From contig JADGCQ010000004.1 of the NCBI GenBank assembly GCA_015228925.1, forward strand, positions 1 to 64,000: a DNA stretch of 64,000 bases. Reading direction: 5' to 3'. Of the stretch, positions 28,473 through 51,474 are shown in pieces. A program made the position numbers and the translations under genes. The stretch's first letter is position 1, and each line of letters begins with the position of its first letter. Source of the stretch: Magnetococcales bacterium (GTDB taxonomy: Bacteria > Pseudomonadota > Magnetococcia > Magnetococcales > UBA8363). The notes under the pieces are model-generated. The model searched no databases, was not told the DNA's origin, and was given only the letters and a program-made list of their open reading frames with translations.

Positions 28473-30236
28473 TCAGTGGCGAAAACGTGAGGAAAGATCC
28501 AAAACCCGGCTGATTTCATCCAAGCTGACAATCCCGCTCAAAACCAATTGGACGCCACTATCGGCCATGGTGGCCAACCCTTTCTTCTGGGCCAAGCGGG
28601 AAAATTCGGTTTTTGTGGCCCGATGGGAGATCAAATTATCGAAATCGTCATCAATCGGAATCGCTTCCATGACCGTGATGCGACCTTTGTAGCCCAGATC
28701 ATAACAGGCACCGCAACCCGTAGCATGGTATATGACCACATGATCGCTCGCCTCCACACCCAGTATTTCCCGCTCCAACGCCGTCGGTTTGCTCGGCAAC
28801 TTGCAGTGTGGACACAGCTTACGGACCAGTCTTTGCGCCAATATACCCACCACATTACCCGAAAGTGTGTCGGGTGTTACCCCAATGTCAAACAATCTTG
28901 GAAATGCCCCAAGGGCAGAATTGGTGTGTAATGTGGAAAACACCTTGTGACCCGTCATCGCCGCACGCAACGCCATGGTCGCCGTATCCAAATCTCGAAT
29001 CTCACCCACGAGGATCACATCGGGATCCTGCCGCAACATCGAACGGATCCCCTCTGAAAATCCAAGATTGGCCGCCGTATTGACCGAAGTTTGACGAATC
29101 ATCTGAATGGGATATTCAACCGGATCTTCCAAGGTCATAATATTGATTTCAGGGGTGTTTAAAAAATTCAGCATGGAATACAATGTCGTCGTTTTGCCAC
29201 TCCCCGTTGGACCGGTCACCAAGATGATCCCCACAGGATGCGCCATCATCATCTTCAAGAGGAACATGGTCTCTGTATCCAAACCCAGATATTCCAGACG
29301 CATGATCCCCTTGTTACGATCCAAAATGCGTAAAACAATGTTCTCGCCATGCGTGGTCGGTTGGGAGGCGACCCGGAAATCAATCTCACGCTTCGATACC
29401 TTCAAGGTAAAGCGACCATCCTGAGGAGATCGGGTTTCAGCAATATTCATCTTGCTCAGCACCTTGACGCGCACGGTCAATCCCGACAGATAATCCCGGT
29501 GCAAACTACGCATTTCCGTCATCACCCCATCAATCCGATAACGAATACGCACAAATCCCGCTTCCGGTTCGATATGAATATCCGAAGCATCCCGACGCAC
29601 AGCATCCGCCAGCAGCGAATCGACCAACCGAACCATGGGATGGCTGAATTCTCCCGTCTCCGCCGAGGCTAAACTTTCCAAATCCACTTCCCCGGTCTCA
29701 ATCTCCCGCATGATCCCTTCGAGAGAAAGTTCAAAGCCATAATATTTATCAATGGCTTGACCTATCTCAGATTCCCCAGCCAAAACCGACTTGATGGTTG
29801 TTCCAGGTTTCAACCGCGCCTGAATCTTATCCAAAATCCCCACATCCATGGTGTTGGGCATGGCCACCGTCAACAGCAACTTCTGTTCATCCCAGTCTAC
29901 CGGCATGATGCGAAAACGTTCCACCAACTTTTTTGGAATCATTTTCACCGCTTCGGGATTCACATCGGTCTGGCTGAGATCGATACTCCCCTCACCCAAC
30001 GCGGCCCCCAGGAGGTCGCGCATCACCGCTTCCGGTACCAAATCAAGCTTGACCAGGATCCGTCCCAACTGCTCTTTGGTCTTTCTCTGTTCGTGCAGAG
30101 CAATGCGCAGTTGATCCTGAGTGATGATCATCCCTTCAAGCAACAACTCACCGAGGCGGCGAGGCTTGCGTTCAGAACCCGCAGAGGCATCCGGTTTTGT
30201 TGGTGAAATAATCTTGGGAGAAGAAGTTTGGCTCAT
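28473..30236 (-). CDS. mshE: type IV pilus/type II secretion ATPase, MshE-like
   Basis: 587-residue GspE/PilB-family ATPase powering pilus extension. An N-terminal MshEN domain (about 25-165; RRLGELLLEGMIITQDQL) of the kind that binds c-di-GMP in MshE precedes the motor domain. Motor motifs are Walker A GPTGSGKTTT, Asp box LEDPVEY, Walker B RQDPDVILVGEIRD and the His box TLHTNSA. A zinc site of paired CxxC (CPHC and CGAC) is present. It is last in a minus-strand operon with the TPR, secretin and MshM-like genes. A second, fused paralogue lies at 35529. Confidence 0.92.
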   Translation of the reverse strand: MSQTSSPKIISPTKPDASAGSERKPRRLGELLLEGMIITQDQLRIALHEQRKTKEQLGRILVKLDLVPEAVMRDLLGAALGEGSIDLSQTDVNPEAVKMIPKKLVERFRIMPVDWDEQKLLLTVAMPNTMDVGILDKIQARLKPGTTIKSVLAGESEIGQAIDKYYGFELSLEGIMREIETGEVDLESLASAETGEFSHPMVRLVDSLLADAVRRDASDIHIEPEAGFVRIRYRIDGVMTEMRSLHRDYLSGLTVRVKVLSKMNIAETRSPQDGRFTLKVSKREIDFRVASQPTTHGENIVLRILDRNKGIMRLEYLGLDTETMFLLKMMMAHPVGIILVTGPTGSGKTTTLYSMLNFLNTPEINIMTLEDPVEYPIQMIRQTSVNTAANLGFSEGIRSMLRQDPDVILVGEIRDLDTATMALRAAMTGHKVFSTLHTNSALGAFPRLFDIGVTPDTLSGNVVGILAQRLVRKLCPHCKLPSKPTALEREILGVEASDHVVIYHATGCGACYDLGYKGRITVMEAIPIDDDFDNLISHRATKTEFSRLAQKKGLATMADSGVQLVLSGIVSLDEISRVLDLSSRFRH

Positions 30237-30248
30237 GGTGCAGAGTAA

Positions 30249-32453
30249 TCAGAATTTTCCGGTCTGTAATACCAATACCGTCATGCGGTGACGCACCGAA
30301 TCGATGTTAAAGTTGACTTTGTTGTATCGTTGCGCCGCATCCAATGCCTGTTGATAATACGTAATCGCCTGAGACGTTTGATTCAGATGATCCAGTGCAA
30401 CCGCCAAGTTCACTAATATTTCTGGATTACCGGATTCCAAACGATTGGCACTTTTAAAAGCGACCACAGCCTCTGACCAACGTTTTTGCGATGCCAGCAT
30501 GTTACCCTGGAAAAAGTGCAAATGTGCAGCCTCTGGAGTTTCACGCAATTGCTGGCGTAAATAACTTTCCTCCCCCTCGACTTTGGTAGTGCCCTGAATG
30601 CCCGCCAAACCTGCCAAAGCCATGGAGTTCCTCGGATCCAAACGGAGAACTTTCCGATAATAATATTCCTCTTCCCGTACATTTCCCCGCCGCGACGCCA
30701 CGGAAGCCAATCCAACCATGGCCCGGGTATCACGGTTATTCGCTTTGTAGACCCGGAGGAACAACCTTTCCGCTTTATCCAAATGGCCTTTTCTAAACGC
30801 CTCCGACGCTTGAACGATTTCCGCATCATGTTGATCCCGATTCTCCCGCTTTGTCTGCCGCTCCTCGGATCGGCTCTTTGAATCGGCAACTTCATTGAAA
30901 TGGGATTTTGGGGAAGATTGACTCGGTTGTCGAATCCCCTCCTCTTTCTTCAATCCATTTTCCTGGACCAATGGGGGTGCAGCGGAAGTGATTATCTCTG
31001 AGGTTTGTTTTACCGTTTCTACCTGTTTTTCTTCGGATTTTGGCGATTCGGTAGGAAGGCCAGCATTTTTCATCGCCTCCGATCCCAACGGACCACCTGC
31101 GATCTTGGCTCCTTGTTCCCGCATCCATGGTGCCGATGGTGCGTGACCAACGTTCTGTTTTGGGTCAACCTTGGCCACGTTCAATGGTTTCAAATCAGCC
31201 GACCGTGCCGTTTTTTCCTCCCTGGACTGGAGAATCTCCTCATCAAAGGGGGCCAAAGCTTCATTGACAAAGTAACCTGCAACAACCACAACGACTGTCG
31301 CGACCACGGCCCCAATGGAATAGATCCACCGGCGACGCCGGACACTTTCTTCATACAACCTGCGCGAAGCCATCAATTTCGAGGCTTTTGACCAGGCATC
31401 GCCTTTTCCCCGCGCCCCACTGGAAGAACTACGGGAAGCGGTCAACTCGGAAGTATCGGAAACTTCGACCGCCCCCGAAGAAACATCTTCCACTTCTTGA
31501 ACATTCCTCCGGTCAGGGTTCTTTGGAACCTTGGAAAAGAAACGGTCTGACCAACCGTGCCGCTCGCCACTTTTCCCGGCCACAGTTGCAGTTTTTTGAT
31601 TTGAACTTGGTGTCGCAACAGGTTCTAAAGGGACAGTTGGGGCCAACTCTAGCGATGGTGTGGCAACGGGATCCAAAAAAGGGCTTGCCTCCAGTTCCAA
31701 AGACAACCCTTGCAGCGGTTCTGCGATCACCGGAGCGGGTTCCATGCTCAAAGACGATCTATGGCCAGGCTCAACAACCACATCCGGTGTTGCCACGCCC
31801 CCTTCAGCACCAATCGTAACAGAATCTTTCTCAATGCTCTCGAACGCAATCAATTCTTTTTTGGGGGGTTCTTCAAACAACAACGTCAACGCCTCGGAGT
31901 GATCCCCCTCCAAACGGGGATCCTGGACAACCGTGATCTCCGTTTGATCTTCTTTTTGCCCCAAAGCGATGTTTCCATCACCCTGATCGGTATGGATGAC
32001 AACATCCTCATCCAAAACCACTTCCATGGAAGGGCTGAAGTCAACGCCACGGTCCCCCGCAGATCGCTTATCAATCAAGCCTGCTCCCTCCAAATCATCC
32101 AAAAGGACGGGATCCTGTCTGTGGGCCTTTTCTTTGGGGGCCTTACGATGTTCGGGTGTTTTTTCCTTACCAATGTCGAAATCAGGAAAACCATCTTCCC
32201 AGGAAGAAAGAAAATCCCAATCAGCGGATGACACCGGATCAGACTTCTGTGAGAGCGTGCTGCGTTCCCCGGCAGGGTGCTTACTGGAACTCTCTTTCCC
32301 AATCGGCGTTTTATGATCGGGTTCTAATTCCATTGCGATTTCTAAATCGGCCAAGCCCGGAACGGGAGCGGGTGCTGAACTCGTTCCAGAATGGGAGTGC
32401 TTGGCACGTCGAATATTTTCCGCACTCTTGAGAGTTTCAAGCAACAGGCTCAT
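30249..32453 (-). CDS. mshN: MshN-like TPR protein with acidic N-terminal domain
   Basis: 734 residues. A long, low-complexity, acidic and serine/proline-rich N-terminal half (about 1-365) is cytoplasmic by topology; a single membrane segment (about 377-397, SIGAVVATVVVVVAGYFV) and a periplasmic linker follow, then TPR repeats from about 555 to 720 (AFRKGHLDKAERLFLRVYKA, YYRKVLRLDPRNSMALAGLA, AVVAFKSANRLESGNPEIL). Position between secretin and ATPase, and the TM-plus-TPR layout, match MshN; the N-terminal half is much longer than I expect for that family. Its start overlaps the secretin stop by four bases. Confidence 0.75.
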   Translation of the reverse strand: MSLLLETLKSAENIRRAKHSHSGTSSAPAPVPGLADLEIAMELEPDHKTPIGKESSSKHPAGERSTLSQKSDPVSSADWDFLSSWEDGFPDFDIGKEKTPEHRKAPKEKAHRQDPVLLDDLEGAGLIDKRSAGDRGVDFSPSMEVVLDEDVVIHTDQGDGNIALGQKEDQTEITVVQDPRLEGDHSEALTLLFEEPPKKELIAFESIEKDSVTIGAEGGVATPDVVVEPGHRSSLSMEPAPVIAEPLQGLSLELEASPFLDPVATPSLELAPTVPLEPVATPSSNQKTATVAGKSGERHGWSDRFFSKVPKNPDRRNVQEVEDVSSGAVEVSDTSELTASRSSSSGARGKGDAWSKASKLMASRRLYEESVRRRRWIYSIGAVVATVVVVVAGYFVNEALAPFDEEILQSREEKTARSADLKPLNVAKVDPKQNVGHAPSAPWMREQGAKIAGGPLGSEAMKNAGLPTESPKSEEKQVETVKQTSEIITSAAPPLVQENGLKKEEGIRQPSQSSPKSHFNEVADSKSRSEERQTKRENRDQHDAEIVQASEAFRKGHLDKAERLFLRVYKANNRDTRAMVGLASVASRRGNVREEEYYYRKVLRLDPRNSMALAGLAGIQGTTKVEGEESYLRQQLRETPEAAHLHFFQGNMLASQKRWSEAVVAFKSANRLESGNPEILVNLAVALDHLNQTSQAITYYQQALDAAQRYNKVNFNIDSVRHRMTVLVLQTGKF

Positions 32454-34186
32454 GGATTCCCAACACCCAATTCACTCCAATCCTTGTCTATCCCTTTTGT
32501 TCGGGTCGTATATAAATCTTTACTGGCTACCCGGTCCATATCGTTGGCATCGGAGATGGTCACAGGTCTGAGAAATATGACCAATTCTTTTTTCTCTTGT
32601 TGGTTATTCCGATAACTAAATAGTTGCCCTATCAATGGAAGACTTCCCAGGACGGGGATGGAATCCATGTTTTTAGAGAAATTGTTTTCCATCAATCCCC
32701 CCATAATCGCCAACTGTCCACTGAGAACACGCAATGTTGAATCCATCTCTTGCACTTTGACGACAGGCACCTTGGGCGGCGTGAATGATTCCCCATTGGG
32801 ATTGTCTGGACGCATGTTCGGGTCAGGATTGTCAACCCACTCGGATATGCGCTGAATGGTGGGATGAACATTCAGAGAAATCACGTCACCTTCGCTAATC
32901 TGCGGTGTAACCTGCAAGATGATCCCGATGGGGGCAATACGCATCTTTGTTTCCTTTCTGGACAAGGAAATAAGATTTGAAGCATTGATAGTCTCACCCG
33001 CAACATTGGAAACGGTGGGAGGCGTCACTTCCACCTCGAAATAGACGACGTTTTCGGTAACCCGGAGAACGGCGGTCTGATTGTTCATGACGGTGAGTCT
33101 TGGATTGGACAGCACCTTGGAATCACCAAACCGTGATAACAGGCGTACTGTCGCTGTAATATCAGCGTTTTTCATCACACCCGTCAGGAAAGGAACCTCA
33201 CCTTGATGCATGGTCAAGGACAGGGCAGGGTCACTATTGAGTTCCTGGTTGAGCATATTTTGCCTATTACCCCTGTCGGTCGTGTTATCATTCATCAACA
33301 GGTTCCAGTCAACCCCAGCTTGAAATCGGTCGGACAGACGCACTTCAACGATGGCCGCCTCAATAAACACCTGCCGTTGCGCATCACGGATGATCTGGTC
33401 GAAGAACGATTGGACCTCACGGTGCTGACGACTGGTTGCTAAAATGCTGAAATTACCAGTCGCACTGTTGAGAACGACACGCTTGCCTTCCCCTTCAGCC
33501 GCTGTACCAAGAATGGCATCCAGATTTTCGAGAATGTTACCCCAAAAATCGACATCGCTTTTTGTAGCCAAGCTGATTGTCGAATTATTGCCCGCCACTT
33601 TGCTACTCGACGAAGCCATATTGGTCGTCGCAGACATTTTCGATTCAAATTGTCGGTTGTTCAGAATGTAATCCAACTTATAATTGCGGCGAAAAGGGAG
33701 ATCGGGGGCAATGGTGATGAAATCTTGGGTAATTCGATATTTCAGGCCCGCATATTCGCTAATACGGCTGAGAATAGCGGGCAAAGTCTGATTGGCGGCA
33801 TTCAGGGTGATCTTTCCCTCGACTCCCGGATAGATATCCACATCAAGATCGGCATCACGAGCCAGGGCAAAAAGAACCTCGCGCACAGGGGTATCGGTCA
33901 CGGAAACGGAATAGGTGGCCAGCGGCGCGGCACTGGATTGTGGCATGAGAAATGTCGATGAATGTGCAAGATCGGGAATGGAATTGTCTGTTTCCAAAAT
34001 TGGTGGAGGAACGGCGGTATCGGGACGTTTTGGTGAATATTCAGAAACTTCCCATACCTCACCGCCCTGCGGGTCCGCTGGACTGCTGGCTGACAACAAC
34101 AGAAAGAGCAACGTCACCAAACCGATGACCGGGAGATTGATTCCCAGTAAACGATCCGGTTTGACGCGATCAGTACACATCAACAA
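32450..34186 (-). CDS. mshL: MshL-like outer-membrane secretin
   Basis: 578-residue secretin that should form the outer-membrane channel for the pilus. N-terminal signal (VIGLVTLLFLLLSASSP), an STN-type domain (about 90-165, VTDTPVREVLFALARDADLD), and the secretin core in the C-terminal half with LLSRFGDSKVLSNPRLTVMN, VPVVKVQEMDSTLRVLSGQ and the membrane-insertion lip near GGLMENNFSKNMDSIPVLGS. It overlaps the MshM-like gene by 17 bases upstream and the TPR gene by four bases downstream, so the four genes are one operon. Confidence 0.92.
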   Translation of the reverse strand: MLMCTDRVKPDRLLGINLPVIGLVTLLFLLLSASSPADPQGGEVWEVSEYSPKRPDTAVPPPILETDNSIPDLAHSSTFLMPQSSAAPLATYSVSVTDTPVREVLFALARDADLDVDIYPGVEGKITLNAANQTLPAILSRISEYAGLKYRITQDFITIAPDLPFRRNYKLDYILNNRQFESKMSATTNMASSSSKVAGNNSTISLATKSDVDFWGNILENLDAILGTAAEGEGKRVVLNSATGNFSILATSRQHREVQSFFDQIIRDAQRQVFIEAAIVEVRLSDRFQAGVDWNLLMNDNTTDRGNRQNMLNQELNSDPALSLTMHQGEVPFLTGVMKNADITATVRLLSRFGDSKVLSNPRLTVMNNQTAVLRVTENVVYFEVEVTPPTVSNVAGETINASNLISLSRKETKMRIAPIGIILQVTPQISEGDVISLNVHPTIQRISEWVDNPDPNMRPDNPNGESFTPPKVPVVKVQEMDSTLRVLSGQLAIMGGLMENNFSKNMDSIPVLGSLPLIGQLFSYRNNQQEKKELVIFLRPVTISDANDMDRVASKDLYTTRTKGIDKDWSELGVGNP

Positions 34187-35294
34187 GCAACTCCGTTGGC
34201 TTTCCTTGGAAATTCATGAATGCTTCCTGGTCACCATGCGTTCCTGGGACTTTCGATGGACCTGGAAGTCCCTCCATGGGTGCCACAACCACTTGATCTA
34301 CCTCCTGAGTCGCCGACGACGGACCCCCATCCAGCCAAAGCGGAAGCGTCCCTGATATGAGACTCATCCCCAGGATGCCAATCACCATGGTGGACGGCTT
34401 GGGATAAGGAATGCGGACAACACCATGACCTAAATTGGGAAAACGGTCGGGCATACTGAGGTGCATGGGTCCAAACCGGGATAGGGAAGTGATTTTCCGC
34501 AGCCGGGATAAGTGAACGTGCTTTTTTTCTACAACGCGCACCCCTTCCCGAAAAGCCTGAACCAAAGCGTCGTGTGCGAGAACGTCGGTGCGCCTTAAAC
34601 TTCCATGGGCCGCCCCATGAATCGCCATGAATGCTTGCGGTGAAAACGCCACTTGAGCCGTCCCATAGAAGGCACGATCCAGGCGGGTTTGGATGTAGTG
34701 ACGGGTATCCTCCAGGGAAAAAGGTGGTACGATCATATGCTGGGTAATACGGTCGCCGATGGGACGCAGTATCGATTTGCCCAACATGCGATCCAATTCT
34801 GGTCGTCCAAAAAATATCATTTGCAGCAATTTATGGTTATAGGTCTCAATATTACTGAAAAATAATAATTCTTCGTAGGTTTCCGGCAACATCGATTGCG
34901 CCTCATCCAGCAGCAACAATGCCTGCTGCCCTTCTTTGAACAGGTGGATAAGATAATCCTGTAATTGTTGGCGTTTGCCATGTTCATCCTGACCCGGTTG
35001 CGGCTTTTGTCCAAACTCCAGCAACAGTACGTCGCACAGTTTTTCTGGGGCAATTTTGGGATCAATGATCAGGGCGGTATGAACCCGCGAAGGCAACCGT
35101 TGGCACAAGAGGCGGCACAGAGTGGTTTTTCCAGTTCCAATCCCCCCCACCACCTTGATGATTCCCTCACCCTCCAAAACCGCCAGTTCCATGGCATCCA
35201 GAAGCCCCTGACGTTGACAATCAGGATAGAAGAAATCTTCGTCGGGGTTGATGGCAAACGGCAATCGGTGAAATCCGAAGAATTCTTTGTACAT
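34170..35294 (-). CDS. mshM: MshM/ExeA-like AAA ATPase
   Basis: 374 residues of the ExeA/MshM family, which helps secretin assembly or peptidoglycan passage. N-terminal FGFHRLPFAINPDEDFFYP is the family hallmark; Walker A is GGIGTGKTT and Walker B LLLLDEAQSM. A hydrophobic segment near 325-345 could be a membrane anchor with a short periplasmic tail, as in ExeA. AGGAAAAAAAT precedes the ATG. First gene of the minus operon; it diverges from the fused ATPase gene at 35529, and the roughly 230-base space between must hold both promoters. Confidence 0.88.
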   Translation of the reverse strand: MYKEFFGFHRLPFAINPDEDFFYPDCQRQGLLDAMELAVLEGEGIIKVVGGIGTGKTTLCRLLCQRLPSRVHTALIIDPKIAPEKLCDVLLLEFGQKPQPGQDEHGKRQQLQDYLIHLFKEGQQALLLLDEAQSMLPETYEELLFFSNIETYNHKLLQMIFFGRPELDRMLGKSILRPIGDRITQHMIVPPFSLEDTRHYIQTRLDRAFYGTAQVAFSPQAFMAIHGAAHGSLRRTDVLAHDALVQAFREGVRVVEKKHVHLSRLRKITSLSRFGPMHLSMPDRFPNLGHGVVRIPYPKPSTMVIGILGMSLISGTLPLWLDGGPSSATQEVDQVVVAPMEGLPGPSKVPGTHGDQEAFMNFQGKPTELLVDVY

Positions 35295-35528: not shown

Positions 35529-38219
35529 ATGAACACCCGTTTTTTCAAATCATTGACCGATTCATTGCGTACATTCCCCATCCGTTTCTCCCACCCGGTA
35601 TGGGTACTTTTGCTCCAGGATCGGGAAGTACGCCTGCTCCACATGGGTGATGGGCATCAGGATTCGGAGAAAATTTTTAATCAATCCTCCAAGGGACAGG
35701 AAAAATTTCGCGCATTTGTGCTTCAGGAAAATGCGACCCAAGGGAGTTTCTTGTTGCTGGCCGATTTGATTGACGATGCCCTGCACTCCCAGACCATTCC
35801 CGGACTGAGATTCCATAATCGCTGGGGAGCCATGGAAAAACGCCTTGACAGGCTGTTTCGGAGTACCCCTTATCGTCGCGCCACTCCTCAAGGTCGCATG
35901 GCATCAGGAAAAGAACAGGTACTTTTCTCCGGCCTCACCGAACCCCGAATGGTGCAGCCATGGATCAACATCCTGAGTGAGGAAGGAAAAAAGATTGCCG
36001 GCCTGTGGTCGCTCCCTCTTTTGAGTCAGGAAATTCTTCCTGACCTACTCCCGGATCATTCAGGAAACACCCTGCTCGTGAGTTTTGGAGCCGCAGGCCA
36101 ACGCCACAGCCTGTTTCTGGCTGGCCAATTAATCATCAGCCGTCTGGCCCCACGTCTGCAAACCCATGACCAAGAGATCGGACTGACCGTCATGGCTGAA
36201 ATTGAGCGGACCCGACGCTACCTCATCGGTCTACGCCTCATCCCCAGCAGAGACGCACCCTTGGATGTCTGTGTTCCGCTTCATCAAAATATGTTCCATG
36301 CGTCGGTTCTCGAATGGTCGTCCAGCAAAGACATTCGGATGATTTTCCATCCTGTGGAGACCTGGGGACGCAACCTTGGATTGCCGGGATCGTTCCCCGC
36401 CCAGCGCATGGATTTGCTTTTTGCGCAATTTTTGCTCAAAACTTTGCCAGCCAGCCACTACAAACCAAAGCTTCCAGAACGGACAACCGCACAAAACTCC
36501 CTGGAGACATCCACCCTACCCACGGGGAAAGCAGCATCGCAACCCGTACACCGGGTTGGAGACCTCCTGGTAGAAATGAAGGTCATCTCCGAGCAACAGC
36601 TTGACATTGCCTTGGCGGAACAAAAACGGTTGGGATACCCCATTGGTAAAGTATTGGTCACACTGGGATTTATCTCAGAAGAGCGGATGCGTGATCTCTT
36701 AGGAGCCTCCCTGGAACAAGAAATCGTTGACCTAAACCTGGGAACCTTTGATTCCCAAGCATTGAATTATCTCCCCAAACATTTTGCCAAACGGCATAAC
36801 ATCCTCCCTCTGGACTGGAACCCAACGACAAGAACCTTGACCGTCGCCACGGCCAATACTTTCAACATGGCGGCACTGGACAAATTGCAGTCGCTCCTGC
36901 CCGAAGACGTTCATGTCAAACCGAAACTTGCCTCCGAGAGCGAACTGACTGCCGCCATCGATAGTGCCTACGGCATCGAATTATCGTTGGAAGGGATTCT
37001 CAACGAACTGGAAACTGGAGAGGTTGACAGCGAAAGTTTGCTTGAAGATGAGGGGAATTTTAGCAATCCCATGTTGCGCCTGGTGAATGCCATGCTCACC
37101 GATGCCGTCAAACGCAACGCCTCCGACCTGCACATCAATCCCATGGCCAACCTGATTCGCATCCGCTATCGCATCGACGGCGTTTTGCGCGAAGCGCGGA
37201 TTCTCAACCGTAAATATCTCCCCGCATTGGTTGTGCGCATTAAGGTCATGTCAGGTTTAGACATCACCGAAACCCGTACCCCTCAAGACGGTCATTTCAG
37301 TTTGGAAATCGCCAATTCCAGTATTGATTTCAGGGTTTCAATCCAACCGACGAACCATGGTGAAAACATGGTTCTGCGCATTTTGGACCGCAACCGCAGA
37401 CTCGTCGGTCTTGAACAACTGGGTCTCAACGAAGAAGATATTGGAGCCATCAACCGACTCATGCAACGCTCCGAGGGGATCATCCTGGTCACCGGTCCCA
37501 CAGGTTGCGGCAAAACAACCACCCTTTATGCCATGCTTTCCAGAATCAACACGTTGGAAAAAAATGTCATGACCCTTGAAGACCCTTTAGAAATTCCATT
37601 GGACGCCATTCTACAAACTTCGGTCAATAAAGCGGTGGATCTGGATTTTGCTTCGGGAGTCCGTTCCATGCTGCGCCAGGATCCCGACATCATCATGGTC
37701 GGGGAAATACGCGATTTGGAAACTGCCGAGATGGCTTTGCGCGCCGCCATGACCGGACATCAAGTTTTTTCCACCCTGCACGCCAATTCGGCCATGGCCG
37801 CTATTTTCCGTCTGCTTAACATTGGTTTGCGCTCCGACATGTTGGCGGGTAACATCACCGGAATCATGGCGCAACGGTTGGTTCGTAAGCTATGTACCCA
37901 GTGTCGCGTCCCTATTTCCCCGGATCCTTATGTTGGATCTTTTTTCCGAGACCACCCTGGATCACAGCCCGTCTATCGGTCAAGCGGCTGCCGGGCGTGC
38001 GAGAATACCGGGTACAATGGCAGAACGTGTATCATGGAGATCTTGGTCATTGACGATGATTTTAACGACCTGATTTCGCTCAACGCCCCCCAGGCCGATT
38101 TCCGAAAACTGGCACGGGAAAGAAAATTACCTATTATGGCCGATTCGGGGAAAAAATTGGTCTTGGAAGGGGTAACAAGTGTCGATGAAGTTATTCGGGT
38201 GTTGGGCATGGAGCTTTGA
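35529..38219 (+). CDS. fusion of MshI/PilM-like domain and MshE-type ATPase
   Basis: About 896 residues. The first 330 resemble the N-terminal half of the MshI-like protein at 39473: compare VLFSGLTEPRMVQPWINIL with ALFVGLTDPETTTPWLNIL, and IAGLWSLPLLSQEI with IAGIWSLPLLALQV. The rest is a full MshE-type ATPase, with MshEN domain (VGDLLVEMKVISEQQLDIAL), Walker A GPTGCGKTTT, LEDPLEI, Walker B RQDPDIIMVGEIRD, TLHANSA and CxxC pairs (CTQC, CRAC). Family members normally have these as separate proteins that meet at the inner-membrane platform. I prefer the ATG at 35529; a TTG at 35490 is also in frame. First of the plus operon. Confidence 0.85.
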   Translation: MNTRFFKSLTDSLRTFPIRFSHPVWVLLLQDREVRLLHMGDGHQDSEKIFNQSSKGQEKFRAFVLQENATQGSFLLLADLIDDALHSQTIPGLRFHNRWGAMEKRLDRLFRSTPYRRATPQGRMASGKEQVLFSGLTEPRMVQPWINILSEEGKKIAGLWSLPLLSQEILPDLLPDHSGNTLLVSFGAAGQRHSLFLAGQLIISRLAPRLQTHDQEIGLTVMAEIERTRRYLIGLRLIPSRDAPLDVCVPLHQNMFHASVLEWSSSKDIRMIFHPVETWGRNLGLPGSFPAQRMDLLFAQFLLKTLPASHYKPKLPERTTAQNSLETSTLPTGKAASQPVHRVGDLLVEMKVISEQQLDIALAEQKRLGYPIGKVLVTLGFISEERMRDLLGASLEQEIVDLNLGTFDSQALNYLPKHFAKRHNILPLDWNPTTRTLTVATANTFNMAALDKLQSLLPEDVHVKPKLASESELTAAIDSAYGIELSLEGILNELETGEVDSESLLEDEGNFSNPMLRLVNAMLTDAVKRNASDLHINPMANLIRIRYRIDGVLREARILNRKYLPALVVRIKVMSGLDITETRTPQDGHFSLEIANSSIDFRVSIQPTNHGENMVLRILDRNRRLVGLEQLGLNEEDIGAINRLMQRSEGIILVTGPTGCGKTTTLYAMLSRINTLEKNVMTLEDPLEIPLDAILQTSVNKAVDLDFASGVRSMLRQDPDIIMVGEIRDLETAEMALRAAMTGHQVFSTLHANSAMAAIFRLLNIGLRSDMLAGNITGIMAQRLVRKLCTQCRVPISPDPYVGSFFRDHPGSQPVYRSSGCRACENTGYNGRTCIMEILVIDDDFNDLISLNAPQADFRKLARERKLPIMADSGKKLVLEGVTSVDEVIRVLGMEL

Positions 38220-38260: not shown

Positions 38261-39463
38261 GTGCCCAAATATTTTTACAAGGCGAGCGACGACAACGGCG
38301 ATGTCCGAGAGGGGTCCATCGATGCCGCCAACGTCGATGAATTGGAAATGCGCCTTGACCAGATGGGTCTCATGCTCATCAGCCTCAAGAGCAACCGCCG
38401 GGGTTTCAACCTATTTTTTCGCCGTCGCGGCATCAGTCGCAGAAATCTTATCGTTTTTTGCTTCAACATGGAACAAATGGCTCTTGCCGGGGTTCCCCTG
38501 ATCGAAGGGATGTCCGACCTGCGCTCTGGGGTGGAAGATGCCACCTTCAAAGAACTGATCACCGCACTGGTCGAAGATGTGAGCGCAGGTCGATTCCTGT
38601 CCCAAGCCATGGAATCCCACCCGGAAACATTCAGTCCTGTCTTTATCCGGTTGGTCCATGTGGGCGAACAAACCGGCAGCTTGGGAGAAATATTTCAAAG
38701 CCTCACCGAAAACCTTAAATGGGAAGATGAACTCATCAGCCAAGCTAAAAAAGTGGTCACCTATCCCGCCATCGTGGGTTCCGTTGTCACTGGCTTGGTT
38801 TTTTTTCTGATGCTCTACTTGGTCCCGCAACTCATGCAGTTTATTTTGGAGATGGGGGGCGAAATTCCCCTGCATACACGCGCTTTAATCGCATTCTCCG
38901 ATTTTATCTCCCATTGGTGGCACTTGCTGCTTATTTTCCCTATTGTGACCTTTGCCGCCATCAAGTTTGCTGCTCGAATCAGTATGGACGCCCATCGTTA
39001 CCTCGACCGAACCAAACTTAAGATCTGGATGTTCGGACCCTTGATTCACAAAATCATCTTGGTCCGGTTTGCCCGTTCTTTTGCCTTGATGTACAAATCG
39101 GGAATCCCAATCCTCGATAGCTTGGGCATCAGTGAAGGGTTGAGCGAAAACTTGGTGGTTCGTGAAGCACTGGCAAAAGCACGCATGATGGTCTCCGAAG
39201 GCAAGGGAATCACGGAAAGCTTTCGGGCCGTTGGTTTTTTCCCCCCCTTGGTCCTCAACATGCTCCAGGTTGGGGAGTCCTTGGGAAAATTGGACCAGTC
39301 TTTGCTTAATGTCAGTTATTTTTACGACCGGGATGTCAAGGAAAATATCGCAAGGCTCGAAACCGCCATCGAACCGCTCCTGACCATGGTTCTGGGTGGT
39401 GTATTGGGTTGGGTCATTCTCTCGGTTCTCGGACCCATCTATCAACTGATCGAAAAACTGTAA
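38261..39463 (+). CDS. mshG: GspF/PilC-like inner-membrane platform protein (MshG)
   Basis: 400 residues of the type II secretion F family. It opens with the typical PKYFYKASDDNGDVREGSID and has the two repeated F domains with three membrane segments (about 172-193, 220-240 and 370-392). Repeat motifs are MEQMALAGVPLIEGMSDL and ARSFALMYKSGIPILDSLG. The start is GTG at 38261, eight bases after AAGAGGT. It would anchor one or both ATPases. Ten bases separate it from the next gene. Confidence 0.92.
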   Translation: MPKYFYKASDDNGDVREGSIDAANVDELEMRLDQMGLMLISLKSNRRGFNLFFRRRGISRRNLIVFCFNMEQMALAGVPLIEGMSDLRSGVEDATFKELITALVEDVSAGRFLSQAMESHPETFSPVFIRLVHVGEQTGSLGEIFQSLTENLKWEDELISQAKKVVTYPAIVGSVVTGLVFFLMLYLVPQLMQFILEMGGEIPLHTRALIAFSDFISHWWHLLLIFPIVTFAAIKFAARISMDAHRYLDRTKLKIWMFGPLIHKIILVRFARSFALMYKSGIPILDSLGISEGLSENLVVREALAKARMMVSEGKGITESFRAVGFFPPLVLNMLQVGESLGKLDQSLLNVSYFYDRDVKENIARLETAIEPLLTMVLGGVLGWVILSVLGPIYQLIEKL

Positions 39464-39472
39464 CCGATCCCC

Positions 39473-41074
39473 ATGGTTCGCAAATTTTTTCTTTTCCTTT
39501 CGGACCATGTTGTCACCACCTATGAATGGCGTCGGGGTTTTTTTCTTGAAGGTACACGTCTGGAACTCAATCAAGATGGATTGAAAGAATTTGAGAAATA
39601 CCTCGACAAAGTTGGGTTGGACGGTCCCGTTTACCTGCTCATTGATGTCACCGAAGAAGAGCTTCATGAAGAACTCGTTCCCAAACTGATCGGAACGAAC
39701 CGGAAAAAAATCATCCGCCAACGTGCCAGCCGTATTTTTCGCAACACCCCCTTTGTTCATTATCGTTTTCAGGGATCGGTCAAAGGAAACCGAAAAAAGG
39801 AACATGCCCTGTTTGTTGGGCTAACCGACCCGGAAACAACCACCCCCTGGTTGAACATCCTGATCAAACATCAAGCGCAGATTGCCGGTATCTGGTCACT
39901 GCCTCTGTTGGCCCTTCAGGTTTTTAACCCATACATTCCAAAAGACCATTCCGTCATGCTGATTAGTCCCAATTCTGGGGGACTCCGACAAATATTTGTC
40001 CAAAACGGAAAAATCAAGGTCAGCCGCCTGTCGCATCTCCCCTCACGGGATCCTGAAACCGTGATGCTGTTCATGCATGGCGAAATCGCACGTCTTCGGG
40101 GTTATCTGAGTACATTACGACTGATTAATAACGATGAGAAACTTGATATTTTTTTATTATGTTCAAAAAAACTACTGCAATACATCAACGAAAATCACAA
40201 ACCCATTGAAACCCACGAAATCCATCCCGTGGACGCCGAATCATTGGCCCTTGGGTTTAACCTGAAAGGCGGTTTGGATGACGAAAACGTCGATATTCTG
40301 TTTGGCCAATGTCTTCTCAAACACCGCATCAGTAACCATTATGCCCAACCTGAAGTCATCCATCGCCATCGTGTCATCATCATCAGTCAGTGGTTCAAGG
40401 TTTTGGCGATGGTCTTGTTTGCCTGTGGCATTGTCATGGGTTTGGTAATCGCTTTTGATGGGTATCTGGTTTTGGCGAAAATTCCAGAACTGGCGCAAAA
40501 AGTTGATGCAGCCCAATTATCCATGCGTAAACTCGCCATCGATGGCGATGCCAAGGACAGCACAGGTCTGGATTCCGTACTCCCGGCCAAAATCCTCGAC
40601 AAAGTTGTCACAATGAGAACCACACCCCAGAATGCCTTGGTTTTCGTCAGTCGGTCATTGGCCAATTTTGATGATTTGTGGATCGATAACATGGATTGGG
40701 AGTCTCCAGCCAAAGAATCTCCAGACCTACAGCAGCCCATCCAAAAAAAACCAACGAAAGCGACTTCCGCTCGTGGCAGTTCTCGAAGCAAACCCCCCAT
40801 GGAGAGCTATCGGATTGCCAATCAATCCATCCGTATTTCGGGACGTATTACCCCCTTTCATGGATCATCCAATGTTGCTCAACGCCGGATCGAGCAATTT
40901 ATCAGCACCTTGAGATCGATGCCAGAAGTATTGGCCGTCACCGCAGAAACAATGCCTATGGACGCCGATCAAAATGCAATCCTCGATAATACTCGTTTGG
41001 CAGATACGAGCGATAAAGCATTATTTGTTATTAATGTAATAATAAATAATGACGGTGATCGCCATGTTCCATAA
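39473..41074 (+). CDS. mshI: MshI-like protein: PilM-like domain joined to a PilN-like region
   Basis: 533 residues. The N-terminal 300 residues look like a PilM/MshI-type cytoplasmic domain and are related to the N-terminus of the fused ATPase at 35529. A single membrane helix near 308-328 (VLAMVLFACGIVMGLVIAF) is followed by a coiled-coil stretch and a periplasmic domain with the pattern of PilN/GspL-type proteins (SYRIANQSIRISGRIT). It should link the ATPase and platform to the periplasmic PilO-like partner encoded next. The 3' end runs past the start of that gene. Confidence 0.8.
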   Translation: MVRKFFLFLSDHVVTTYEWRRGFFLEGTRLELNQDGLKEFEKYLDKVGLDGPVYLLIDVTEEELHEELVPKLIGTNRKKIIRQRASRIFRNTPFVHYRFQGSVKGNRKKEHALFVGLTDPETTTPWLNILIKHQAQIAGIWSLPLLALQVFNPYIPKDHSVMLISPNSGGLRQIFVQNGKIKVSRLSHLPSRDPETVMLFMHGEIARLRGYLSTLRLINNDEKLDIFLLCSKKLLQYINENHKPIETHEIHPVDAESLALGFNLKGGLDDENVDILFGQCLLKHRISNHYAQPEVIHRHRVIIISQWFKVLAMVLFACGIVMGLVIAFDGYLVLAKIPELAQKVDAAQLSMRKLAIDGDAKDSTGLDSVLPAKILDKVVTMRTTPQNALVFVSRSLANFDDLWIDNMDWESPAKESPDLQQPIQKKPTKATSARGSSRSKPPMESYRIANQSIRISGRITPFHGSSNVAQRRIEQFISTLRSMPEVLAVTAETMPMDADQNAILDNTRLADTSDKALFVINVIINNDGDRHVP

Positions 41075-41687
41075 ATCTCCTGAGTCTGCATTGCTTTGGA
41101 AAGTATCGTTCATTTTCATCATCGCCATCCTACTGGGAATGGCCGCCGTATGGGGCGGTATGACTTACCGCGATTCCGCGCATCAGCAGATTCAGTCGAT
41201 TCAGAATGAACTAACCACCATAAAGAATAAAAAAGAATCGTATATCAAAGAATTGGACCTTGTAAAAAATTACAAGCCACTTTATCAAACATTTGTCTCC
41301 AAAGGGGTGATCAACCAGGAACCACGGCTTAAATGGTTGGAAACCATCGAACAGATCGGCCAAGGGTTAAAATTAACCAAGCCAGTCCGTTATAAACTTG
41401 AGGTACGCAAAGCTTTCGACCCCCCTTTTTCCTTGCCTCAAGGTCACTTTGTTCTTTTTGTCAGCCTCATGACCTTAAATATGGATCTTCTGCACGAAGG
41501 TGATATTTTTAGGTTTTTTAATGCTCTTGAACAGCAAGCCTATGGGATTTTCAGTGTCCCCTCGTGTTCCATCAAACGGACAACCACACGGTATCGGTTA
41601 CAGAATAACGCGGAGTGGACCACCTCCTTGGAGGCGGAATGCGCGTTGCATTGGTTTACCCTCTGGGATAAGGAAGACAAACAATGA
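41064..41687 (+). CDS. mshJ: MshJ/PilO-like alignment protein
   Basis: About 207 residues with a short cytoplasmic tail, one membrane segment (VSFIFIIAILLGMAAVWGG), a coiled coil (about 45-75) and a small alpha/beta periplasmic domain, the layout of PilO/GspM and MshJ. The ATG at 41064 follows GGTGATCGCC and overlaps the end of mshI by 11 bases; an upstream in-frame ATG at 41049 lacks ribosome-binding support. It overlaps the next gene by four bases. Confidence 0.78.
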   Translation: MFHKSPESALLWKVSFIFIIAILLGMAAVWGGMTYRDSAHQQIQSIQNELTTIKNKKESYIKELDLVKNYKPLYQTFVSKGVINQEPRLKWLETIEQIGQGLKLTKPVRYKLEVRKAFDPPFSLPQGHFVLFVSLMTLNMDLLHEGDIFRFFNALEQQAYGIFSVPSCSIKRTTTRYRLQNNAEWTTSLEAECALHWFTLWDKEDKQ

Positions 41688-42409
41688 AGATTGTTTCTTT
41701 TATTTTCCTGGTCTTATCCTGGTGGCACCCCATGATTGACAGCCAAGCCGAAAGCCAAGATTCCCCCTTGCCATCTCAGTCCGAGCCTTCCCAACAAGAA
41801 TTATCTTTAGGCCGTCTGTTCAACACCCCGGCCCATCGCATGTTGCTCGATCAACGACGCCTGACCCTTTCCCCCGATGGGGATGCAAAATCCATCGAAG
41901 ATCAAGCGGAAGATATTTCACTTCCTGGGGTTAAAGGTCCGCGATACCTATCGGTCACCGGGTTGATTCTCAATGAGAACGGTGAACGAAAACTCTGGCT
42001 AAACGGCAAGGTTGTGGACGCTCAAAAAACATATGATGGCGAGGGTTTTTCCGTCGATTTGGAGTCGGCAACCAACAAAGGCTTGCCGGTATCCTCGGTG
42101 GATACGCATGAGAATTATCTGGTCAAGCCGGGTCAGACTGTTGATTTTGTAAAAAAACGGATAACAGCCACCTGGGAGATTCCCGAAAGTGAACGGGCAT
42201 CAGCGCGTCGAGAACCGCCACCACCGAACCCAAAATCCGCTGCCGTTCCACAAACGAATGGCCCTTCGACGACAAACACATCGTCGGCATCGGATCCATT
42301 TCAAGGCCTCCCTCTGTCTCCCGGTTTGGCAAATACTCTGAATGTCCTCCAACAACTCAAAGCCATCCAATCCAGCAGTGCCGCCCCCCCATTGGAGGAA
42401 AAACCCTGA
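41684..42409 (+). CDS. MshK/PilP-like exported protein
   Basis: 241 residues with a signal peptide (KIVSFIFLVLSWWHPMI), a disordered acidic stretch, and a small beta-rich region (GLILNENGERKLWLNGKVV, ENYLVKPGQTVDFVKKRI) that resembles MshK and the homology domain of PilP, which bridges the inner-membrane complex to the secretin. The C-terminus is rich in Pro, Ser and Thr. Last gene of the plus operon, ATGA overlap with mshJ. It converges with the prepilin operon 27 bases further on, with no clear terminator hairpin in between. Confidence 0.65.
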   Translation: MKIVSFIFLVLSWWHPMIDSQAESQDSPLPSQSEPSQQELSLGRLFNTPAHRMLLDQRRLTLSPDGDAKSIEDQAEDISLPGVKGPRYLSVTGLILNENGERKLWLNGKVVDAQKTYDGEGFSVDLESATNKGLPVSSVDTHENYLVKPGQTVDFVKKRITATWEIPESERASARREPPPPNPKSAAVPQTNGPSTTNTSSASDPFQGLPLSPGLANTLNVLQQLKAIQSSSAAPPLEEKP

Positions 42410-42436: not shown

Positions 42437-43186
42437 CTACGGCAACAACCAGTTTGATTCCAGTGCCCGCAATTTGACCACATCGGGGGACATCCACATC
42501 AGAATATCATCTCCAGCTTGATAAAACCGTTCAGGATTGGGATTGTCAGGATTATCGCCATCATCGATGATATTTTCTTTTTCTAATGCTGTGGCTGCGG
42601 CAAATGGCCTTTTAAGATTTGTGTCCAGGTTCATGGCATAGGCACCATGGCCATTGGGACCATGGGAAATCACCATCACCGGGATATTGGATAACAGCAG
42701 TGTGCCACCACCGGAATAGACCTCCATGTCGCCATTGGTATCGAAGTTGTAGCCACCATTCACCGTGAAGGCACTGCTGACGCGATAGGAATAAAAATTC
42801 CCCCATTTATCCATGGGTTTGATCCCCAAACTTTGCCATGGCAATAATCCAGTCTGCTGACCATCGGGAGAATCGGTACACAAACCCGTTACGGCGTCTC
42901 TGTTTTCCTGACCATCCGCGACAGTCCCCACATACCAGTCTGGACAAGGCAAAGATCCTGTCATAGCAATAAACCCCAATAACACCTGTTCAATCTCCCG
43001 CATGGCCTGTTGCGTTTTTTCCAGATTGGCTTTGGCACTTTGAACCCGGATGGCACTTACGGCACCAAGCATCAAGGTTCCCGCCACCGCCAACAGAATG
43101 GCCATTTCAATCAAGGTGAACCCCTGTATGGAGTTCATGGAGATGCGCACAAGTCGCCCTGTTGGGATGAATCTGTTCATAATCAC
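42437..43186 (-). CDS. minor prepilin with LPCPD/LPW signature
   Basis: 249 residues. A leader of about 22 residues ends in QG followed by FTLIEMAILLAVAGTLMLGA, the prepilin peptidase site (G/F) with Glu5. The body shows GSLPCPDWYVG, LLPWQSLGIKPMDKWGNFYS, NIPVMVISHGPNGHG and DDILMWMSPDVVKL, all mirrored in the prepilin at 43994. It likely forms part of a pilus tip or initiation complex. The start is a GTG at 43186; an internal ATG just before NSIQG would give a short leader. Third gene of the minus prepilin operon. Confidence 0.82.
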   Translation of the reverse strand: MIMNRFIPTGRLVRISMNSIQGFTLIEMAILLAVAGTLMLGAVSAIRVQSAKANLEKTQQAMREIEQVLLGFIAMTGSLPCPDWYVGTVADGQENRDAVTGLCTDSPDGQQTGLLPWQSLGIKPMDKWGNFYSYRVSSAFTVNGGYNFDTNGDMEVYSGGGTLLLSNIPVMVISHGPNGHGAYAMNLDTNLKRPFAAATALEKENIIDDGDNPDNPNPERFYQAGDDILMWMSPDVVKLRALESNWLLP

Positions 43187-43202: not shown

Positions 43203-43976
43203 TTACAATTGAGTCAGAACATTCAAAATTTCAGAACATTTAATGCCCAGGAGCCGATCGTTGAAGGAAGAATTAATAACACCACCAGATTTATCATAAG
43301 ACTCATCCAGATCAGCATTTGCTCCTTCGAGAAACTCTGGAATCAAGTTCACCGCTGTGACATCACTGGCACGGATCTGGTTAGTCAACGCCTTGCCAGG
43401 AGAGAACAGAATGGCAGCATATTTTTCTGGGTCTCCGCTGATGGTGAGGTCAGTCTGGTCGCAAAGAAAGCTCGCTTTGGCGGGGTATCCGGTGCTGAAT
43501 CGTGACGACAGGGCATACCAGATGGGAGCCTGTTCGCCATCCACCAGAGGTGGCAAACCAAGGGTTTTCCATGGCAAAAAACCGAGGGTCGAACTACATG
43601 CCCCTTCGAGAGCATTTTCACCGTAATCATCCAGAGGATCGGCGGTATTGCGATAAAAGCCTTCATAGGGGCAGGGGAGTTTTCCATACGCTTTTGCCGG
43701 GGGAGGGGTTTTGGCCGCCTGCATGGCGGCATAGGCGATCAATGCCCTCTTCGCATGGATCAGCGTCACGTTGGAGACTTGATCACCACGGAGTCTTTTA
43801 CTTTTGATTAATAGCGCATCCAAAGCCAGGGAGAGACCCCCAAGGAGAATGACGGTCATGATGATAATCAGGGCAGCCCCCTGTTGATCACCCAAGGTTC
43901 CCCTCTTTGAAACAGTATTGGTTCCAGGACTCAAAAGACACCCACTCGCAGAAGCATCGCACCTTTGCCCAAACAA
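43203..43976 (-). CDS. PilX/MshP-like minor prepilin
   Basis: 257 residues. The hydrophobic segment starts DQQGAALIIIMTVILLGG, like PilX-type pseudopilins, which have AAL in place of the usual FTLIE and lack Glu5. The body again has GKLPCPYEG and LGFLPWKTLGLPPL, linking it to the two neighbouring prepilins. A TTG at 43895 just after AGAGGGGAACC would give a short leader (MGDQQG) and may be the true start; the longer frame at 43976 adds 27 unusual residues. Sixteen bases separate it from the next prepilin. Confidence 0.75.
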   Translation of the reverse strand: MFGQRCDASASGCLLSPGTNTVSKRGTLGDQQGAALIIIMTVILLGGLSLALDALLIKSKRLRGDQVSNVTLIHAKRALIAYAAMQAAKTPPPAKAYGKLPCPYEGFYRNTADPLDDYGENALEGACSSTLGFLPWKTLGLPPLVDGEQAPIWYALSSRFSTGYPAKASFLCDQTDLTISGDPEKYAAILFSPGKALTNQIRASDVTAVNLIPEFLEGANADLDESYDKSGGVINSSFNDRLLGIKCSEILNVLTQL

Positions 43977-43993: not shown

Positions 43994-45487
<1,494 letters not shown>

Positions 45488-45718: not shown

Positions 45719-46534
45719 ATGATCAATGCCGACAATAATAGCATCAACGCTCTTTTTCTCAATCATGGCAGAATCCTGTGGATCATTGCCCGCATGACTG
45801 TTTGGGAAAATGGTTTAAACCGTCTGCCATGGGCGGTGTTATTGGTTTTGAGTATGGGAATCGGGCTGGCTTATTTTCTGGGGGCCGTCGCCATCACCGA
45901 AGAGGCGATGATACAAGGTGCGGTAACGGGTGCTTTTTTCCGGTTTTGTGCGGTGTTTTTGTTAACCATTGCCGTGATCGCCAGCGTGGCCAGAGAGTTT
46001 AACGACCGAATGGTGGATACAACGTTAGCCCTGGCCATCCCCCGTGCCGTCTATTTTGGCGGTAAATTGATCGGCTTTATAGTAACCGCCATTCCCATGG
46101 CGGCAATTTTTGGCCTCATCTTGATCCCTTTTTCCCCCTGGGATCAGGTGGTTTTGTGGAGCATTTCCCTGGGTTGCGAACTCATCCTTATGGCCGCTCT
46201 CAGTCTTTTTTTGGTTCTGACCCTGACTCATGTTACCCCCGCCCTGGCAGTTGCCATGGTAACCTATCTGTTGGCACGATCCATGGGGACCATGGTGCTG
46301 ATAGCCAGTGGCCCCTACGCCCAACTTGAACCCATGCCCGGCAAACTGCTCTTGCCAGTTCTCCAATGTCTTTCCTGGCTGCTTCCTGATCTGGGACGGT
46401 TTACCTCCGGGGAATGGCTGGCCTATCACACCGGAAGTTTGCATGATTTGGGAAACATCGCCATGGAAACCATCATCACCCTTTTTCTTCTTTGTGGGGC
46501 AGGACTCTTTGATCTTTATCGGAAAGACATTTAG
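45719..46534 (+). CDS. ABC-2 type permease-like membrane protein
   Basis: 271 residues with about six membrane segments between residues 35 and 262, resembling permease subunits of ABC-2 exporters (VAREFNDRMVDTTLALAIPR lies on the cytoplasmic side as in that family, with a final helix ending in YRKDI). No ATPase gene is adjacent in this window, so the partner must be elsewhere or the protein works differently. No clear Shine-Dalgarno sequence precedes the ATG at 45719; an in-frame ATG at 45794 is an alternative. The following gene overlaps its 3' end. Confidence 0.7.
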   Translation: MINADNNSINALFLNHGRILWIIARMTVWENGLNRLPWAVLLVLSMGIGLAYFLGAVAITEEAMIQGAVTGAFFRFCAVFLLTIAVIASVAREFNDRMVDTTLALAIPRAVYFGGKLIGFIVTAIPMAAIFGLILIPFSPWDQVVLWSISLGCELILMAALSLFLVLTLTHVTPALAVAMVTYLLARSMGTMVLIASGPYAQLEPMPGKLLLPVLQCLSWLLPDLGRFTSGEWLAYHTGSLHDLGNIAMETIITLFLLCGAGLFDLYRKDI

Positions 46535-47252
46535 ATCCAATACCGCTTCCTCCTCCCGCACACCGCCTCGACAACTCTTGGTGCTTTTGGTGTTAGGGGT
46601 TGTCGTGCAGTTGCTATGGGGCAGCACGCGACCACCACTCACCGCCAAGGCCGAGGATTTACCACAACCACCAGCGCAACAATGGTTGCAGCTTGGAGCC
46701 TTCGGAGATCAAGTGACTTTGGCACGTATTCTCATGCTGTGGTTGCAAAATTTTGACAACCAACCGGGTCTGGCCATCCCCTTCCGTAATCTGGACTATG
46801 CCAACTTGGAAAAATGGCTCGCATTGATTCAAACCTTGGATCCACGCAGCGAATATCCCCTGTTTGCCGCCCTTTATATGTACGCTGGCACCCCCGATCC
46901 CAAGCGAACCCGGATCATGCTGGAGTTTATCCACCGCCAGTTCCACGGCAACCCGGAACAACGTTGGCGGTGGCTTGCTTTTGCTGCCGTCCGCGCCCGC
47001 CACCGCCTCAATGATCCCCAGCTCGCCCTGCTTTACCTCAACGCACTGCTCCCGGAAATCAAACAAGGGCATCTTCCACAGTGGGTATTGGGTGTCCGTT
47101 TGAGCCTACTCCAGTCAACGGGTCAATTGGAAAGTGCCCGCCAGTTGGTCGGTGGTCTGCTCACGCATGGGGAGATTCATTCGCCCACAGAAATTACTTT
47201 TCTTTCCGATTGGCTCAAAAAACTAGAAGAAGGGGTGGTATTTGACCGATAA
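46509..47252 (+). CDS. anchored helical repeat protein, function unknown
   Basis: About 247 residues. The open frame extends upstream to 46308 inside the permease gene; I chose a TTG at 46509, which leaves a short basic N-terminus, one membrane segment (LLVLLVLGVVVQLLWG) and a periplasmic helical domain with TPR-like pairs (YPLFAALYMYAG, RWRWLAFAAVRARHRLND, ARQLVGGLLTHGEIHSPTEI). The start remains uncertain. The overlap with the permease suggests that the two proteins work together, perhaps in assembly or export of a surface structure next to the pilus genes. Confidence 0.6.
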   Translation: MIFIGKTFRSNTASSSRTPPRQLLVLLVLGVVVQLLWGSTRPPLTAKAEDLPQPPAQQWLQLGAFGDQVTLARILMLWLQNFDNQPGLAIPFRNLDYANLEKWLALIQTLDPRSEYPLFAALYMYAGTPDPKRTRIMLEFIHRQFHGNPEQRWRWLAFAAVRARHRLNDPQLALLYLNALLPEIKQGHLPQWVLGVRLSLLQSTGQLESARQLVGGLLTHGEIHSPTEITFLSDWLKKLEEGVVFDR

Positions 47253-50342: not shown

Positions 50343-51419
50343 TCAAGGGGTACGGTCCACATCCGGCAAACCAGCCACCGGATGAAAAACCCGATGGACA
50401 TAATGCAGGATCGCAACAAGTTTTTCATCGGACAGAACCGATTTCCACGCTGGCATAGATGTGCCGGGAATTCCATCGCGCAGAGTCGCCAGTAAAGTCG
50501 TCGCCGTTTGCCCATCCATAAAGGTTTTAGCGGTAAGATCGCGTGGATGCGGCTCAAGAAACCGGCCAATCCAATTCTTACCAGTCCCGTCGGCGGCATG
50601 GCAAAAAGCACAATTTTTTTGGAAAAGCGTCTCCCCCAACCGTTCCACCGGCGTCAGATCGGCCACAACAGCAGGAAGGTCATGAACGGCATAAATCGAC
50701 GCCCCACTCACCCCGTCAATTTTGCCCACCGTTTCTGGCGTCACGCCATTGCGCGGAAAAGAGACCGGCCTTGAATCCCAAATCGGTCCCTCTTCCTCCA
50801 CCCGCCCACGATCATGGCAGGTGATACAGGCTGAAAAAAAAAGTTGCTTGCCCTCACGCTGCTCTACCGTCAGTTGATCATCGGGGGTATCCAACGCCAA
50901 CGCCCCGGTTGCAAACGGAAAGGCCACGGCATACCGTTCATGATTGTCCCAACCATTGGCTTTGGTGTGATAGCGGGTATTGGAAGCATGGCGAACCATG
51001 AACTCCCAACGGACAAAATCGGCAACCTCTGCGATTTCGTCTTTACCGAGAATGGTGCCAAACCCCGCCATGGCACTCCCAGAAATACCGGAGGTAATGA
51101 CGGTCACCATCCGTTCACGAGAAAGCTCACCAGGAGAAGTTGCCAGAAAATTGCGCGGTTTGGGGGAGAGAAAACTGCTGGCCAACGTTTGCGCGTCTCC
51201 AGAGTAACCATGGCAAAAATAGCAGCGGAAATTATAGATCTTCCGCCCCCGCTCATGATGTTGGGCATCCCACCCATCCTCGGCAACCACCGAATTCACC
51301 GATCCCGCCACAACGGGAAGGCTTTCCAACCCCTGTGCCATCGCGGGATGGTTGACCAACAACCCCAGCCCAATCGTCAAAGCCGCCTGCAATACCACGA
51401 TACCATCCCACTCAGCCAA
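50343..51419 (-). CDS. exported triheme cytochrome c
   Basis: 358 residues with a signal peptide (VVLQAALTIGLGLLV, cleavage near AMAQ) and three class I cytochrome c haem motifs: CYFCH, CITCH and CAFCH. The first and third domains carry candidate Met ligands after the haem (SAMAGFG and GTSMPAWKSVL); the middle one is shorter. It most likely passes electrons between periplasmic partners. It lies 55 bases downstream of a similar triheme cytochrome on the same strand, so the two are probably cotranscribed. Confidence 0.88.
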   Translation of the reverse strand: MAEWDGIVVLQAALTIGLGLLVNHPAMAQGLESLPVVAGSVNSVVAEDGWDAQHHERGRKIYNFRCYFCHGYSGDAQTLASSFLSPKPRNFLATSPGELSRERMVTVITSGISGSAMAGFGTILGKDEIAEVADFVRWEFMVRHASNTRYHTKANGWDNHERYAVAFPFATGALALDTPDDQLTVEQREGKQLFFSACITCHDRGRVEEEGPIWDSRPVSFPRNGVTPETVGKIDGVSGASIYAVHDLPAVVADLTPVERLGETLFQKNCAFCHAADGTGKNWIGRFLEPHPRDLTAKTFMDGQTATTLLATLRDGIPGTSMPAWKSVLSDEKLVAILHYVHRVFHPVAGLPDVDRTP

Positions 51420-51474
51420 AGAATTCCAACGCCGAACCTGAAAAGATCACCACCATAGAGGATATGGCTGTTAG

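Follow-up and report, generated by a model that had tools for sequence, protein, structure and literature searches.

Open questions about the motor ATPases of type IV pili (T4P) and type II secretion systems (T2SS) are how they remain engaged with the membrane platform, in which stoichiometry they do so, and how motors for extension and for retraction replace one another in the PilM socket. These questions are touched by a gene in the stretch of Magnetococcales DNA analysed here (the window, 64,000 nucleotides of contig JADGCQ010000004.1), in which a PilM/MshI-like domain is fused to an MshE-type ATPase, and the question is what a motor might do with such a domain of its own. PilM/GspL-type proteins are known to dock and stimulate the motor (PMC6325625, PMC11656802). 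PilM links PilF to PilN/PilO, and PilMN stimulates the PilF ATPase about two-fold (PMC6325625); PilM also provides the socket in which PilB sits, a place for which the motors of extension and retraction compete (PMC11656802). In Vibrio cholerae, MshI is GspL-like, and the genes mshI to mshF constitute the assembly operon (PMC4624765).

The fused gene (35529..38219, forward strand) is an unbroken frame with its ATG at 35529 and its stop at 38219, and encodes 896 aa comprising the PilM/MshI-like domain, a linker, an MshEN domain (36552..36986, +) with a near-complete c-di-GMP motif pair, and a T2SSE ATPase domain (37065..38198, +). Walker A (GPTGCGKTT), Asp box, Walker B, His box and tetracysteine are intact, and these catalytic motifs are conserved in 26 fusions. 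Pfam recognizes only MshEN (residues 398-486; PF05157, 52.7 bits) and T2SSE (residues 513-890; PF00437, E 2.9e-127) in the fusion protein, to which NCBIfam adds a c-di-GMP motif model at residues 342-391 above its cut-off; the MshEN part reaches 59.9 bits with NF053729 (cut-off 38). Compared with the published motif (PMC5013675), motif I of the window deviates at two positions (L10->V, G18->K) and motif II is without its terminal Q. The fusion stays below the named equivalog cut-offs (GspE 512.8 vs 630, PilB 486.5 vs 675.7, and likewise TfpB), as does the unfused MshE-type ATPase of the window (28473..30236, reverse strand), and no MshE equivalog model was matched in NCBIfam. Therefore, the fusion was classified as MshE-type rather than PilB or GspE. 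Its ATPase half and the unfused MshE-type protein are 52% identical. Residues 342-893 thus have the same MshEN-T2SSE architecture and catalytic motifs as MshE, PilB and GspE, but the fusion has an extra PilM/GspL-type domain of ~318 aa in front, whereas described members of this family have extra GSPII domains at most, of which Thermus PilF has three (PMC6325625).

The sequence-only reading had proposed that the N-terminal third of the protein is related to the N-terminal half of an MshI-like protein whose gene lies 1.2 kb downstream (39473..41074, +). This was confirmed in a search of the genome against itself, in which fusion residues ~1-318 matched that protein with 36% identity over 258 aa (E 8.7e-33) and matched a second MshI-like protein, on contig C31 of the same genome, with 34% identity (E 5.6e-27). 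The WSLPLL and LF-GLT-P segments proposed to be common to both do indeed fall on columns of an alignment of 26 sequences, in which 14 positions are invariant. The MshI-related part itself is present, but its proposed limit at residue 330 did not hold, because it ends near residue 318, where the MshI transmembrane helix begins. Residues before 340 had no match in Pfam, NCBIfam or PDB sequences, and this includes the PilM_2 profile of Pfam for residues 1-340. For residues 13-335, an AlphaFold2 model that drew on 26 relatives with and without the fusion reached a pLDDT of 88 and a pTM of 0.86. Its ten best PDB matches were all PilM (5eox, E 1.6e-10; 2ych; 3jc8), followed by PulL (5tkw), EpsL (1yf5), GspL (4pht, in complex with GspE) and FtsA. 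The TM-scores were moderate, mostly 0.40-0.57, as we would expect for a multi-subdomain actin-like fold at ~10% identity. The comparison with PilM, MshI and GspL that had been suggested as a check therefore favours the proposal: the predicted fold matches the cytoplasmic domains of PilM and GspL and supports a PilM/GspL-type actin-like domain (35595..36482, +), and homology, alignment and predicted fold agree in assigning it to the PilM-like cytoplasmic domains of MshI and GspL, to MshI by sequence and to GspL by fold. The actin-like fold is also common to type IVa PilM, which is however a separate protein with a DxG nucleotide loop (VGLDIGTS in the PilM of this genome), whereas the motor-linked domain lacks this loop (LLLQDREV). 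ATP binding by the fused domain is therefore doubtful.

In MshI the same domain is directly followed by a transmembrane helix (residues ~303-330 in the downstream protein) and then by a periplasmic, PilN-like half. Both are present in the MshI relatives and absent from the fusions, which have a linker and the motor in their place, and for this reason the fusion was not classed as MshI. Alignment and fold prediction together show that the N-domain is of the actin-like type seen in the cytoplasmic part of GspL and MshI, with the membrane-spanning and periplasmic half of MshI gone and a short linker leading into a complete MshEN-T2SSE motor. The linker (~25 aa, residues 316-340; 36474..36548, +) is predicted to be disordered. 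Both halves fold in the full-length model, but at a pTM of 0.43 it leaves their mutual arrangement unfixed and gives no support for a rigid unit.

A continuous frame across 36450-36600 and the same fusion in other genomes had been named as further checks, and both supported a genuine fusion. The frame is continuous, GC3 is even across the junction between N-domain and motor (0.56/0.55/0.58), and the fusion was found at full length in relatives. The first in-frame ATG downstream of the N-domain is, read by eye, codon 350, which lies within the c-di-GMP motif, so that a separate MshE started there would be damaged; a TTG near 36445 may be a candidate internal start for a separate MshE. Among 48 Magnetococcales genomes, 29 carry the fusion (in G029 and G032 it is cut by contig ends), and in the relatives the N-terminal part is MshI-related and not an unrelated sequence. 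Four genomes of the genus have it at 72-80% identity, and over 20 further fusions, from other parts of the order or paralogous, match at 39-53%, with no internal stops. A scan of GTDB contigs with a single-sequence query, which finds close relatives only, returned full-length fusions with 76-80% identity in the Magnetococcales MAGs DCbin4, HA3dbin1 and nWRX3bin12. Contig C74 of the same genome as the window carries another fusion of full length (44% identity over residues 27-893). No fusion was detected in ~740 other sampled Pseudomonadota, drawn from a phylum sample of 398 genomes that includes some Magnetococcales and from 369 of the class of G351; in these samples, the N-domain outside Magnetococcales is confined to unfused ORFs of ~430-611 aa and to fragments truncated at contig ends. 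No description of a natural fusion of PilM, GspL or MshI with a motor was found in the open literature, subscription papers being outside the scope of the search. As far as these searches go, the components are known and their architecture is undescribed.

The fusion is embedded in an msh cluster. Directly 3' of it lie genes for an MshG/GspF platform protein (38261..39463, +), the MshI-like protein, an MshJ-like protein in the PilO position (41049..41687, +) and, by position and conservation, an MshK-like protein (41684..42409, +). An MshM/ExeA-like AAA ATPase (34170..35294), an MshL-type secretin (32450..34186; TIGR02519 236.9 bits, cut-off 250.2) and an MshN-like TPR protein (30249..32453) are encoded, like the unfused MshE, on the reverse strand. 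mshG directly follows the fusion at all fusion loci with downstream sequence, both in msh clusters and in lone pairs. In the first type of locus (the window, L009-L011, L056, L060) the fusion lies within an msh cluster composed of M-L-N-E and fus-G-I-J-K, with unfused MshE and unfused MshI present; in L047-L051 only the fus-G-I-J-K part is covered. In the second type (L041, L043-L045, L052-L055, L057-L059) a fus-mshG pair stands without I-J-K. In the tree of ATPase halves, a single branch separates all fusions from the rest (SH-aLRT 80). The best N-domain tree requires two changes, but a single clade was not rejected (AU p 0.19; L082 and L032, fusions cut by contig ends, were labelled as fusions). 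These trees are most simply read as one fusion event, with moderate support. The order L-N-E-fus-G-I-J-K in one run in L056 suggests that mshE was duplicated in tandem between mshE and mshG, capturing the 5' half of the neighbouring mshI, probably once, and the fus-mshG pair may later have spread also as a two-gene module.

On this basis, we propose with a probability of roughly 0.6 that the product of the gene is a dedicated extension motor for an MSHA-type pilus (T2SS/T4P family) with its own PilM/GspL-type docking domain. This proposal draws on the homology to MshI, the predicted PilM/GspL fold including the match to 4pht, the motifs conserved in 26 fusions, the constant mshG neighbour and three carrier genomes, G006, G008 and G025, discussed below. 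A fixed stoichiometry of N-domain and motor follows from the covalent linkage, and from the published roles of PilM/PilB, PilM-PilF and MshI we infer that the docking partner would be a fixed part of the motor. Six N-domains would ring each ATPase hexamer and fill the place of the separate PilM, GspL or MshI domains, and the motor would arrive at the platform protein MshG already joined to its docking part, without exchange in a shared socket. It would probably still be gated by c-di-GMP via MshEN. Several points speak against this proposal. Given the low pTM and the flexible linker, the N-domain may or may not rest on its own motor. In V. cholerae, surface MSHA piliation rises when mshI is deleted (PMC4624765), and an MshI-type domain could therefore restrain a motor instead of promoting it.

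Unfused MshI is also found in 23 of the 29 carriers, most of which keep unfused MshE as well, and the fused domain therefore need not replace MshI. In such genomes the fused motor would work alongside ordinary MshE, comparable to a pilus with two motors. The same retention of MshI, together with the fusion and mshI lying in one gene run with mshG in the window, would fit a different role, in which the fused domain pairs with MshI in mixed dimers or rings and so serves as a targeting tag that recruits the motor to MshI-bearing machines in competition with plain MshE. This alternative has perhaps between a fifth and a quarter of the weight, and it is opposed by the lone fus-mshG pairs without adjacent mshI and by G006, G008 and G025 (93, 99 and 96% complete), in which the fusion is present and neither MshI nor MshJ was detected in profile searches of the draft genomes. 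The other carriers without MshI (G002, G027, G032) are limited by contig ends or completeness. G008 and G025 have separate type IVa PilM and PilN, whereas G006 had no match to the PilN family and has a secretin, TPR and AAA_22 set elsewhere in its genome. There (L100, on contig C44), three AAA_22 (MshM/ExeA-like) ATPases stand in a row beside the MshL-like secretin and TPR protein. Where MshI is missing, the fused N-domain of the dedicated motor may be the sole MshI-type docking domain.

It is tempting to extend the dedicated-motor proposal to the N-terminal extension. The fusions have 15-35 N-terminal residues more than MshI, in the window MNTRFFKSLTDSLRTFPIRFS (35529..35592, +), for which an amphipathic helix and/or a PilN-like xxPxR peptide can be hypothesized. 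A hydrophobic-P-x-R motif within the last 24 residues before the first strand occurs in 14/30 fusions and 0/11 MshI proteins (shuffle control: 2.3 on average and at most 8 in 2000; given the relatedness of the sequences, this cannot be read as a probability). Magnetococcales PilN proteins start with INLLPYR or VNLLPYR, and a PilN-like peptide in cis is hypothesized for about half of the fusions. Tentatively, at odds of about one in five, the gene might encode a self-docking motor that combines a PilN-like peptide (as in NLLPER; PilN of the order has INLLPYR), a PilM-type domain and the motor in cis and forms with MshG a two-gene module independent of MshI and MshJ, as in G006, G008 and G025. 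If true, this would be a motor-platform module of two genes that works without MshI and MshJ.

Less probably, the N-domain might be a regulatory or inhibitory module that restrains the motor until a signal arrives, for instance c-di-GMP on the adjacent MshEN. Its position directly before the near-complete c-di-GMP motif, the flexible linker and the piliation phenotype of the V. cholerae mshI deletion (PMC4624765) would agree with such a role, but known family members dock or stimulate motors (PMC6325625), and we regard it as rather unlikely. Quite improbable is mere membrane targeting, by which a fusion-specific amphipathic helix and the N-domain would carry the motor to the membrane with no specific docking: the extension is absent from MshI and its hydrophobic moment in the window is reached by only 0.2% of shuffles, but the moment is unexceptional in most relatives, so that an amphipathic helix general to the fusions was rejected, and the conservation of the whole domain, with its invariant columns, exceeds the needs of a membrane anchor. 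An artefact, a lost stop or a mis-assembly joining two genes, can be dismissed, since the same fusion recurs in 29 genomes including independent MAGs and as a paralogue in the same genome.

The dedicated motor may also be compared with Acinetobacter baylyi, where two extension motors, PilB and TfpB, act on one pilus (PMC8213720). Here likewise two extension ATPases are encoded for what appears, from genes alone, to be one pilus; unlike the fusion, neither PilB nor TfpB is described with a PilM-type domain in the available part of that report. A natural covalent fusion of a PilM/GspL-type domain with a motor is evolutionary evidence of a close partnership between motor and docking protein. For structural studies it offers a complex that is potentially stable, and for experiments a testable system with a possible restriction of extension-motor exchange.

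A second msh cluster of the same genome (C31:1-9861, L042) has the canonical order L-N-E-G-I-J-K without the fusion, and with the window and C74 this makes three MSHA-type gene sets in one genome. In the window, a pilin-like protein with an N_methyl motif and a long Thr-rich mucin-like stretch (43994-45487, −) adjoins two further pseudopilin-like genes (42437-43186, 43203-43976). Beside these pilin genes, 45719-47252 (+) encodes a hydrophobic 271-aa protein, ABC-2 permease-like with no Pfam match, and then a membrane/repeat protein. Several lone fus-mshG loci are near N-methylation pilin-like genes and an ABC transporter, with an ABC ATPase (L053, L043, L044) or an ABC-2 permease (L053), and a link between an ABC transporter and the fusion-bearing pilus is possible. 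A Ser/Thr protein kinase with an Lcl_C domain is encoded beside the fus-mshG pair in L055 (6382-8142, −) and has a homologue in L057. Further along the window, two multi-domain c-type cytochromes with cbb3-type domains (50343-52611, −) adjoin an NHL-repeat protein (52774-54219).
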